DNA of 64,000 nt from Marinobacter persicus. Its GTDB lineage: Bacteria; Pseudomonadota; Gammaproteobacteria; Pseudomonadales; Oleiphilaceae. A program made the translations under genes and the position numbers. The stretch's first letter is position 1. The number at the start of each line of letters is the position of its first letter. Of the stretch, positions 9,579 to 44,290 are shown piece by piece. The notes beneath the pieces are model-generated. The model saw nothing but the letters and a program-made list of their open reading frames with translations. It was not told the DNA's origin and did not search any database. The stretch is from positions 62,001 to 126,000 of the forward strand of contig NZ_PTIV01000005.1 of NCBI RefSeq assembly GCF_002934325.1, given 5' to 3'.

Positions 9579-10206
9579 ATCACCGGCGGTAGTTAATCTG
9601 GCATTCACCGGCGCCTCGGGCGCCCAGTACGGCCTGCGGCTGTTGCAGTGCCTGGTGGCGAATCAATGCCGGGTAAACGTCATGGTCAGCAGGGCGGCCC
9701 AGGTGGTGATCGCCACGGAAACCGATTTCCGGTTGCCGGGTTCGCCGCCGTCCATGAAAGAGGCGTTTACCGAATACACCGGTGCGGCTGATGGTCAGAT
9801 CCAGGTTTTCGGTCGGGAAGAGTGGTTTTCACCGCCGGCCTCCGGCTCTGGAGAGAAAGCTCCGTTGGTGGTGTGCCCCTGTAGCACGGGTACTTTGTCA
9901 GCGCTTGCCACCGGCGCCAGTAACAACCTGATCGAACGGGCCGGGGATGTAGCGCTGAAAGAGCGCCGCCAGTTGATCCTGGTGTTGCGCGAATCGCCAT
10001 ACTCGGAAGTGCACCTGGAAAATATGCTCAAGCTCACCCGGATGGGTGCGGTGATTATGCCGGCCAGCCCGGGTTTCTACCACAAGCCGGAATCGGTCGA
10101 CGATTTGGTGGACTTCATGGTGGCAAGGATTCTGGACCATCTGGGTCTGGAGCAGACCATGGTGCCGCGTTGGGGGGAGTCTAAGGGCTCAACGGTGCAA
10201 GAGTAA
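9571..10206 (+). CDS. ubiX: Flavin prenyltransferase UbiX
   Basis: Makes prenylated FMN, the cofactor of the ubiquinone-pathway decarboxylase UbiD. The 211-residue flavoprotein shows [13 protein letters not shown] near the N-terminus, [16 protein letters not shown] in the middle and [16 protein letters not shown] in the C-terminal part, all family hallmarks. GTG 9571 overlaps the mpl stop by 8 nt and gives the normal length; extending upstream in frame only reads mpl sequence. Its TAA stop (10204-10206) lies inside the left arm of the hairpin repeat at 10201-10309, so that repeat forms the immediate 3' untranslated region. Confidence 0.95.
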
Positions 10207-10309
10207 GCGGGTAGGTCTTTCCAAAACACGCTGTAAATACGTCCCTGTAGCGCTCGTCCTCCGCCATCCATGGCTCCGCACGGTTTTGGAAAGACCTACC
10301 CGCTTACTC
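10201..10309 (+). repeat. Hairpin repeat, copy 1 (variable stem, conserved loop)
   Basis: Left arm 10201-10227 and right arm 10283-10309 are perfect 27-bp inverted repeats. The 55-nt loop contains the self-complementary element GCCATCCATGGC and the weaker TACGTCCCTGTA. Related elements are at 28712-28824, 43998-44111 and 44179-44290. The shared tip of the stem is TCCAAAA/TTTTGGA; the outer stem differs between copies. No open reading frame of interest lies inside. The function is unknown; it could act as a terminator or a protective 3' hairpin for ubiX. Confidence 0.85.
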
Positions 10310-10414: not shown

Positions 10415-10438
10415 CCACTTCTTAGGGGGAAGAAGTGG
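10415..10438 (-). terminator. Trailer hairpin of tRNA-Leu
   Basis: A 9-bp inverted repeat (10415-10423 with 10430-10438, CCACTTCTT/AAGAAGTGG) lies just 3' of the leftward tRNA-Leu, and its stem includes the tRNA CCA. There is no T-run after it on that strand, so it may be a processing or weak termination structure rather than a classic terminator. Confidence 0.4.
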
Positions 10439-10522
10439 TGCCGAGGAGAGGACTTGAACCTCCACGGGGTTGCCCCCACTAGCACCTGAAGCTAGCGCGT
10501 CTACCAATTTCGCCACCTCGGC
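10436..10522 (-). tRNA. tRNA-Leu (anticodon CAG)
   Basis: An 87-nt cloverleaf on the minus strand with an encoded CCA end (10436-10438). The acceptor stem is GCCGAGG (complement of 10516-10522) paired with the complement of 10440-10446. The anticodon loop TTCAGGT gives CAG, reading CUG leucine codons. The long variable arm is the class II feature expected for leucine. It is a single gene between ubiX and rnr. Confidence 0.97.
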
Positions 10523-28581: not shown

Positions 28582-28711
28582 GTCAACAATCCTTGCTGGT
28601 GATCTTCTTGGTAGTTGTAAGTAGAACTACGAAGTATGCCACAGGGAGCGGAAAGCACCCATAGTTTCAGGGGGTATCAGGATGTAAGTCGAAGTCTGTG
28701 CGTGGTGAGAC

Positions 28712-28824
28712 GCAAGTAGGCGGGTAGGCCTTTCCAAAACACGCTGTAAATACGTCCCTGTAACGCTCGAGCTCCGCCATCCATGGCTCCGCACGGTTTT
28801 GGAAAGGCCTACCCGCCTGCTTGC
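28712..28824 (+). repeat. Hairpin repeat, copy 2
   Basis: Arms 28712-28740 and 28796-28824 (29 bp) pair perfectly except for one T-G wobble. The loop is nearly identical to that of the copy at 10201-10309, in the same orientation. Relative to that copy, a T-A pair in the stem has become C-G (AGGTC/GACCT to AGGCC/GGCCT), a compensatory change. It lies 10 nt beyond the 3' end of the leftward serine hydrolase gene. Confidence 0.85.
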
Positions 28825-28834
28825 TGGCTTTTAG

Positions 28835-30082
28835 TTACACCAAAGCTCCGTACGCCAGCGCTCTTAATTCCTGGCGCACCGGATAAGCCCGCGAGGGAAT
28901 CAACTGGGTCATGAAGATCAGCACCAGGTCTTCGCTTGGGTCCACCATAAAGTGGGTGCCGGCCAGGCCGCCCCAGCCGTATTCGCCTTCCGAGCCAATG
29001 GTGTGGGACGCCGGTACGTCGGTTTTGACGGAAAAGCCGAGGCCAAAACCGGTGCCTTCGTAAGGAGTCTCGCTGAAGCCGCCAATGGACATTGTCGGGA
29101 GATCCTGGCCGCCGGGCAGGTGGTTGCGGCACATGAATTCCAGGGTTTTGCGGCCAATGATGCGGGCGCCCTGGTATTCGCCGCCCTGATTCAGGGCCTG
29201 GGCGAAGCGGAAGTAGTCGTCGATGGTGGAGACCAGGCCACCGCCGCCGGAATGGAAACGAGGGGGCTTCAGGTAACGGGAGCGTTCCGGATCGTCCTGC
29301 AGCTTCATGGTGTCGCCTTGCTGGTACAGGTAGCAGGCGGCAAAGCGGTCCTGCTGGTCCGGGCGCACGTGGAAGCCGGTCTCGGTCATGCCCAGGGGCT
29401 CGAAAATGTGCTGATGGAAGTACTCGTTCAGCGGCTGGCCGGAGAGCTGTTGCACCAGGTAGCCAAGTACATCGGTGGAGACCGAATAGTTCCAGGCGGT
29501 GCCAGGGTTGAACTCCAGCGGCAGTTCGGCCAGGCGATCCACCAGCTTGTCCAGAGTCAGTATCGGACTGCCATCCAGCTTCAGCTTGCGGTAAGCCGCA
29601 TCCACTGGGGTGCGCTCGGTGAAGCCGTAGGTGAGCCCCGAGGTGTGGGTGAACAGGTCCCGAATGGTCATGGTGGTGGTCGCCGGCTCGGTCTCGAAGT
29701 CCGGGTAATGGCCACTTTTGTACACCCGCAGGTTCTTCCAGTAAGGGATGTACTTATGCACGGGGTCGTTGAGCAGGAACTTGCCCTGCTCGTACAGCTG
29801 CATCATGGCGATGGCGGTGACGGGCTTGGTCATGGAATACACGCGAAAGACGGTGTCGCGCTCCATGGGCCTGCCGCGTTCCACGTCCCGTTGGCCCTGG
29901 GCCTGGCACCAGACCACCTCGCCGTGTCGTGCCAGCAGCGTGACCGCCCCTGGAAGTTTTCCGGGTTGCACGTACTGTTCGTTCAGGTGCCGGTGTATAC
30001 GACTCAGCCGATTGATGGATAACCCCGCCTGGACATCGGGGGCGGGGCGGTTGGTTTTGTCGTGAGAGCTGGTTGGGGTCAT
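28835..30082 (-). CDS. Serine hydrolase of the class C beta-lactamase/esterase family
   Basis: A 415-residue penicillin-binding-fold hydrolase, probably a family VIII-type esterase. The nucleophile motif SMTK ([12 protein letters not shown], near residue 83) matches S-x-x-K, and the second motif is a tyrosine in [20 protein letters not shown]-like glycine-rich sequence ([10 protein letters not shown]) near the C-terminus replaces the KTG of beta-lactamases, as in esterases. No signal peptide is evident, so it is probably cytosolic. The substrate is unknown. Hairpin repeat copy 2 lies immediately downstream. Confidence 0.85.
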
Positions 30083-43997: not shown

Positions 43998-44111
43998 GAC
44001 GGGGTTGGGAATGCCTTTCCAAAAAGCGCTCCTTGCGGCACATCCATGTGGCGCTTGTGTTCCGCCATCCATGGCTCCACAAATTTTTGGAAAGGCATTC
44101 CCAACCCCGTC
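43998..44111 (+). repeat. Hairpin repeat, copy 3
   Basis: Arms 43998-44025 and 44084-44111 are a perfect 28-bp inverted repeat whose outer sequence (GACGGGGTTGGGAATG) is unlike the other copies. The loop keeps GCCATCCATGGC, while the first small hairpin is now CACATCCATGTG. It lies 34 nt after moeB. With copy 4 it fills the 345-nt gap between the convergent moeB and phr genes; nothing else was recognised there. Confidence 0.85.
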
Positions 44112-44178
44112 GACCAGACTAATGCAGATGGCCGTCTCTAGTGATCGTCTGGAAAAACATATAGGCCAGCATTGAGTA

Positions 44179-44290
44179 GGGGCATGTCAGGAAGGACTGT
44201 CCAAAAATTTTGAGGGCCAAGGATGGCCCGAAATAAGCGCACATGGATGTGCTCGTAGCGGTTTTTGGACAGTCCTTCCTGACATGCCCC
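44179..44290 (-). repeat. Hairpin repeat, copy 4 (inverted relative to copy 3)
   Basis: Arms 44179-44207 and 44262-44290 are a perfect 29-bp inverted repeat with another unrelated outer sequence (GGGGCATGTCAGGAAGG). Read on the minus strand the loop has CACATCCATGTG and GGGCCATCCTTGGCCC, i.e. both small hairpins are kept with changed bases on both sides. It lies 20 nt from the 3' end of phr. Confidence 0.85.

Follow-up and report, generated by a model that had tools for sequence, protein, structure and literature searches.

Dispersed TwoAYGGAY-type hairpins in Marinobacter with locus-private arms that change together between species

An inverted-repeat search of the window, a 64,000-nt stretch of the Marinobacter persicus genome, located four long inverted repeats (Table 1). 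The arm sequences quoted in an earlier sequence-only reading were correct, and its description of pairing over 27-29 bp, with a single wobble in the copy at 28712, was confirmed. Positions read off the sequence placed the two GGA hairpins of the focal loop at about 28750-28762 and 28775-28787. The copy at 10201 was located downstream of a tRNA-Leu gene (10436-10522) in the sense of the tRNA. The copies at 43998 and 44179 formed a -/+ pair situated between convergent open frames.

Table 1 Coordinates of the hairpin elements in the window and of the duplicate copies in genome G006
Feature	Position	Strand	Description
Copy 1, arms	10201-10227/10283-10309		27 nt, 100% arm identity (inverted-repeat search)
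Copy 1, whole element	10201..10309	- (GGA strand)	RF01731 30.1 bits
Copy 2 (focal), arms	28712-28740/28796-28824		29 nt, 97% arm identity (inverted-repeat search)
Focal hairpin, left arm	28712..28740	+	private in its outer part; inner part (GGCCTTTCCAAAAC) of a shared kind
Focal hairpin, loop (core)	28741..28795	-	two small GGA-loop hairpins, minus strand
Focal hairpin, right arm	28796..28824	+	
Copy 3, arms	43998-44025/44084-44111		28 nt, 100% arm identity (inverted-repeat search)
Copy 3, whole element	43998..44111	- (GGA strand)	RF01731 37.0 bits
Copy 4, arms	44179-44207/44262-44290		29 nt, 100% arm identity (inverted-repeat search)
Copy 4, whole element	44179..44290	+ (GGA strand)	RF01731 39.0 bits
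G006 duplicate copies	C10:213171, C11:385021, C16:23499		

The sites corresponding to the window copies were compared in other genomes. At 10201, the arms differed and the loop was inverted in G056, and a deletion remnant with a G056-like left arm was present in G093. The copy at 43998 differed from that of G056 at two paired arm positions, on both sides in each case, and the arms in G093 were mismatched. In the copy at 44179, an A-T pair of the window corresponded to a G-T wobble in both G056 and G093, with one further mismatch in G056. The orthologue of the focal right arm in G056 carried two transitions and adjoined a second element of another subtype. The focal site contained no element in G093, G122, G018, and G054, where it was too diverged to be read. 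The gap orthologous to window positions 28600-28835 lacked the hairpin in G092, G002, G052, and G091, and, as judged by eye, apparently contained a gene for a small secreted charged protein.

A strict sequence pattern identified 18 copies in the M. persicus genome, against 0 for a reversed-pattern control. Their stems were 24-29 bp long around a loop of about 55 nt, the innermost 7 pairs being demanded by the pattern and the outer ends being fixed by maximal pairing; nine stems were fully Watson-Crick, and the remaining nine contained 1-3 imperfect pairs. A weak consensus (GGG..., then CTTTCCAAAA) was found in the inner half of the stem and none in the outer half, so that the claim of stems private to each copy holds in part. 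In an alignment of 28 copies, 96.6% of the paired cells were complementary, compared with 74.3% in shuffles (none of 500 shuffles was as high), and both sides had changed at 27 of 38 pairs. The edge of the stem was profiled with 64 elements from four genomes, whose ends were set by a covariance model. Watson-Crick pairing was at least 95% over the 16 inner positions and 75-98% over the 10 outer ones; it was 56% one base beyond the stem, and from two bases out it lay within 19-44%, mostly 20-30%, close to the level expected from composition. Among the cores of five genomes (99 distinct ones), one strand carried two or more ANGGA motifs in 93, and the other strand lacked the motif in 98. Strict AYGGAY was not always kept, because the letters around GGA vary. 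The element comprises a stem of about 27 bp, the outer limit of which is sharp, around two ANGGA mini-hairpins. Judged by eye, none of the 18 M. persicus stems is directly bordered by four or more consecutive T residues, and intrinsic terminators were rejected on this ground.

With 25.9-39.0 bits, the focal element being the lowest, all window copies scored under the RF01731 gathering cut-off of 43 bits, and no match above this cut-off was found in the window or in 140 kb of G096. Among eleven loci scanned, seven matched RF01731 at E <= 1 and four gave no match; sub-threshold hits to microRNA families (e.g., mir-3688) indicated that long hairpins attract chance hits. In a wider search of 38 genomes (M. 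persicus and relatives), matches at E <= 0.01 were present in 26 and matches above the cut-off in seven, with none at either level in 14 control genomes. Matches above the cut-off coincided with strict-pattern copies (G013:C1:1535859 and G024:C11:1649365), and the RF01731 matches spanned the full element and the full model. The elements probably belong to TwoAYGGAY, on the strength of their paired GGA loops, both terminal loops being of the GGA type, together with the 38-genome search.

TwoAYGGAY was included among candidate RNAs in 2010 (PMC2864571), and its external stem is reported to be poorly conserved, with CsrA binding predicted (PMC4333381). An outer stem enclosing two GGA-loop hairpins is common to TwoAYGGAY and the Marinobacter elements, whereas high-copy dispersal and locus-private, synchronised arms are absent from the portions of the published description considered here. 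A search of titles and abstracts for TwoAYGGAY in Marinobacter returned nothing relevant; the family is already known as a candidate RNA, and its high-copy, locus-private, synchronised form was not found in the literature searched, mostly by title and abstract. As to function, the leading idea is that the GGA strand may bind CsrA/RsmA, as already predicted in print for TwoAYGGAY. The csrA gene was present in the M. persicus genome, and RsmA has a sequence preference.

Besides M. persicus, 20 of 24 congeners carried the strict pattern, which was absent from all 13 genomes of other families that were searched. In GTDB genomes, at least 118 stretches matched; among the matches listed, 75 of 80 belonged to Marinobacter, and the other five were scattered and are perhaps chance. 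A covariance model built from the 28 copies found the family in M. persicus and all nine congeners tested; match numbers in this search do not equal copy numbers, since many elements match on both strands and scoring was limited to 150 candidates per genome. When 95 genomes sampled from the order, including M. persicus and three congeners, were searched, this model had matches in 31 genomes and in 26 of the 70 genera. Six relatives from other families of the order (G027, G029, G134, G149, G194, and G207) had 6-38 model matches each, and G027 and G029 also had matches above the Rfam cut-off. Sampled blocks contained 30 (G096), 29 (G018), 28 (G066), 26 (G024), and 15 (G017) elements per 400 kb, corresponding to roughly 150-330 copies per genome if these blocks are typical, which suggests that TwoAYGGAY is a high-copy dispersed element in Marinobacter.

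Gene context was assigned from simple open-frame calls for 132 elements, many of them mutually orthologous: 58 were located in tandem, 37 in convergent, and 16 in divergent gaps, and 21 inside naive open frames. The background comprised 327 tandem, 104 convergent, and 173 divergent gaps, relative to which divergent gaps were poor in elements. Relative to the neighbouring genes, the GGA strand of the tandem cases was sense 27 times and antisense 31 times. Elements frequently formed inverted -/+ pairs, separated by about 50-200 bp and with the GGA strands facing outward, including that at 43998-44290 of the window and those at many loci in G096, G018, G066, G056, and G002. The elements resemble REP/REPIN sequences in being dispersed intergenic palindromes that occur singly or as inverted pairs (REP doublets). 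For REP/REPIN sequences, alternative complementary stem residues or compensatory changes have also been described (PMC3116915, PMC3733652, as far as the portions considered here go). The Marinobacter elements differ from them in being much larger (about 110 bp) and in having private outer arms. PF01797 (Y1 transposase) was unmatched in nine Marinobacter genomes containing strict-pattern copies; mobilisation by a RAYT was rejected, as the distribution of PF01797 does not parallel that of the elements.

Similarity of the arms was nearly independent of similarity of the loops. Across 1,529 paralogue pairs binned by loop similarity, the fraction of arm letters shared ranged from 0.37 to 0.43 (rho 0.10); it was 0.41 in the 21 pairs with loops at least 96% alike and 0.37 in the 261 pairs with the least similar loops. 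Near-identical loops with different arms occurred within single genomes (G003, G013, and G024), and in one orthologous pair (G003:C444/G017:C1) the loops differed between copies identical in their arms and nearly identical in the adjacent flanks. The loop is common to the copies; the outer arm is a property of the locus and is not tied to the loop. That copies travel with their arms as a general rule was rejected, given the near-identical-loop paralogues with unrelated arms. Arm families, which the sequence-only reading had set against its own proposal, were sought and not found. An exception was observed in G006, where two copies shared their arms and about 15 bp of flank on each side (99% over 138 bp) and a third was 94% identical to this pair over 128 bp. 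Whole units can therefore be duplicated, and the G006 copies suggest that the unit duplicated or transposed there extends beyond the hairpin.

To describe how the arms change, orthologous elements were compared in 400-kb collinear blocks of three species (G096, G018, and G066) and of two genomes of another clade (G017 and G024). One-to-one orthologous pairs numbered 78. Four of them, fused or out of register, had fewer than 19 of 24 Watson-Crick pairs and were discarded, which left 74 with both stems in register; the pair counts exclude sites where elements were multiple or not reciprocal. The arms were compared as 24 fixed in-register positions, without indels. Since the three-species pairs overlap in species, G096-G018 and G017-G024 serve as the independent sets. 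Among the 1,776 stem positions, changes in both arms that were still Watson-Crick numbered 250, compared with 19.8 expected under independent arms; 105 positions had changed in one arm and 22 otherwise. The independent sets gave 75 such two-arm changes against 5.2 expected (G096-G018) and 27 against 2.5 (G017-G024). Both arms of orthologous loci thus change together beyond independent mutation, as the claim of synchronised arms implied.

The balance of the two kinds of change depended on divergence of the immediate flanks. Below 0.10, no two-arm and 15 one-arm changes were found (20 pairs); at 0.10-0.25, there were 19 and 27 (15 pairs); and above 0.25, 231 and 63 (39 pairs). Unpaired positions per element in these three bins were 0.68, 1.27, and 1.41 of 24. 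Moreover, five mixed positions, with the left arm in one state and the right arm in another, were captured in 19 three-species loci: three of the G-U type, one C-A, and one A-A. The absence of two-arm changes from the 20 least diverged pairs indicates that the second step is not fast, and because only one-arm changes occur at low divergence and intermediates exist, synchrony returns in two steps. The window sites at 43998 and 44179, with their mismatched arms and wobbles in the relatives, agree with this course. The species comparison suggests that a change in one half may later be matched by the other half. The proposal that one arm is rewritten from the other is accordingly supported in part by the excess of two-arm changes, but not as a single step, for one-arm changes come first and intermediates survive.

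Divergence per position was 0.18 in the arms, 0.26 in the immediate flanks with gaps counted, and 0.074 in the 600-bp flanks. In the two independent comparisons, the two-arm changes comprised 38 transitions and 64 transversions, whereas the ratio was 1948:1191 in the 600-bp flanks (p = 8e-7) and 51:40 in the immediate flanks (p = 0.0097), in tests that treat positions within a locus as independent. In addition, an inverted loop with the arms kept, the pattern looked for as a mark of template switching, was found at one locus: the loop of the element at G096 217949 was 97-100% identical to those of G018 and G066 only when inverted, and two arm pairs had changed. The immediate flanks of this locus were about 50% diverged. 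Two further apparent loop inversions accompanied largely replaced arms. Clustered two-arm changes were also present in the between-species data, accompanied by flank divergence. For template switching as the sequence-only reading had proposed it, the transversion excess and the single loop inversion fit, and rewriting in a single stroke is not supported.

Imperfect pairs were strongly asymmetric when read on the GGA strand. In G096 and G024, 40 were G-U and five A-C (p = 8e-8), in addition to 33 other mismatches, which show that selection against mismatch is not strict; for the first count of the asymmetry, 99 elements were reduced to 89 distinct arm pairs and two were dropped. The G-U to A-C ratio was 21:2 in sense and 19:4 in antisense contexts, and the 18 M. 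persicus copies contained eight G-U and two A-C pairs. As the excess holds in both contexts, the folded GGA strand is important regardless of how the genes are oriented, and transcription-linked mutation bias was rejected as its cause. Selection on the folded strand is evident from the G-U excess over A-C and from the sharpness of the stem edge. Since selection contributes in this way, the statement that point mutations could hardly keep the pairing went too far: pairing is maintained when mutation is followed by a further step, whether compensation or copying.

Occupancy was widely shared between species. At 26 of the 30 G096 loci, fused elements included, the matching place was occupied in both other species. 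Among five loci at which one species lacked the element, four retained remnants of arm or element and one was ambiguous. No clean pre-insertion site was found in the three-species block, at the window loci, or at two of the G006 duplicate loci. Two neighbouring G017 elements corresponded to an element-free stretch of about 1.5 kb in G024 that was not readable, and for a weak element of G066 (43929) neither of the other two species had a corresponding site. The G066 elements at 255191 and 289990 seem to be members of -/+ pairs fused by deletion, with arms still mismatched.

The DNA beside the elements was often unalignable. Unalignable ends numbered 28 of 60 beside elements against 6 of 106 at control gaps, 25 of 60 against 9 of 100, and 17 of 30 against 30 of 134, with 53 of 69, 50 of 69, and 67 of 76 control gaps placed and gaps with unplaced sides left out. 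Flanks beside elements in G096, G018, G066, G017, and G024 were unalignable between close species 2.5 to 8 times more often than mid-gap controls. In the three-species set, the two-arm count per locus correlated with divergence of the 40-nt flanks (rho 0.84-0.90); for G017-G024, rho was 0.39 and not significant. Pairs with at least 10 two-arm changes were no more alike than paralogues (mean 11). As two-arm changes track flank divergence, part of them is probably replacement of whole units. A different element had plainly been received by G056 at the focal site, and likewise at 10200 in the comparison of G000 with G056.

The reading we favour, with a probability of about one half, is that selection and copying between the arms act together, copying being the main second step. 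Copies are mostly located at positions shared between species and are inherited with the locus. The first step is a point mutation in one arm, as the one-arm changes of the least diverged loci and the mixed intermediates show; in the second, the partner arm gains the matching base, as shown by the two-arm changes that dominate at diverged loci. This second step may be largely templated, with a hairpin formed at replication letting one arm serve as the template for the other. The route would be template switching or quasipalindrome correction, by which the loop could sometimes be inverted; quasipalindrome correction has reportedly been treated by van Noort et al. Selection for a foldable GGA strand would retain the corrected states and fix the length of the stem; homogenising without selection should blur the stem edge, which was observed to be sharp. 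Loops, as their sequences suggest, are probably exchanged between loci independently of the arms, so that arms would become locus-private while loops stay alike, and some loci may additionally have been replaced by another element. The wider picture, in which loops are swapped genome-wide, locus-bound arms are recopied from arm to arm, and a foldable CsrA-type strand is selected, is put forward tentatively.

In published template-switch systems, homogenised arms, inverted spacers, and a lowered fraction of transitions have been described (PMC8604942, PMC8794818, in the parts considered here), as in the Marinobacter hairpins. Unlike those cases, the Marinobacter arms flank a structured loop of about 55 nt and recur at many loci per genome, and the course is slow and visibly two-step.

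Selection could also act alone, with a one-arm mutation followed by an independent compensatory point mutation that restores a functional folded GGA strand (RNA or single-stranded DNA). We regard this as possible but rather unlikely. It agrees with the GGA strand having far more G-U than A-C pairs whichever way the genes point, with the sharp stem edge, and with the precedence of one-arm over two-arm changes, three of the five captured intermediates being of the G-U type. The path through G-U gives transitions, however, whereas the two-arm changes were mostly transversions (38:64); the arm divergence of 0.18, nearer to that of the immediate flanks, is fast given an unfavourable intermediate; and selection for pairing does not explain loop inversion. 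The transition fraction is not specific to copying between arms, as replacement by unrelated arms would likewise make it nearly random.

Such replacement is the basis of a further explanation, in which an old element is swapped for a ready-paired one together with some flank, by recombination or by insertion into the old element, and the arms only seem rewritten. The unalignable DNA beside elements (28 of 60 ends against 6 of 106 in the first comparison) and the tracking of flank divergence by two-arm changes are in line with it, as are the focal site of G056, where a second element adjoins a remnant, and the G006 copies that share arms and adjacent flank. The inverted-loop locus, with its diverged flanks, may also be a swap for an oppositely oriented unit. 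As a general account, this explanation appears improbable, because 22 of 25 pairs with 3-9 two-arm changes kept at least 14 of 24 stem pairs, a level reached by 12% of paralogues, and because mixed-arm intermediates exist. Loops that were 98-100% identical while 10-13 arm pairs differed also speak against it, although loop exchange could produce the same pattern.

The sequence-only reading had also offered a mobile element whose insertion copies the flanking DNA into an inverted arm. This explanation is very improbable: in the one case in its favour, G018 lacks the element at the locus of G066 261989 and has only the outer end of the right arm, which is ambiguous and also fits deletion between short direct repeats, whereas the other four inspected loci keep remnants of arm or element, most G096 loci are occupied in both other species, and the G006 loci have no alignable empty counterpart.

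How long stems remain perfectly paired despite drift, by compensatory selection or by templated copying, is an old question. Many homologous hairpins with private arms, together with flank divergence, inversion, and intermediates, make the two separable at the level of strains. If selection combined with arm copying is the true course, these elements would naturally record template switching between arms at many sites in each genome.

The strict pattern was also detected in six IMG/VR viral contigs, which could be chance or carriage of the element.
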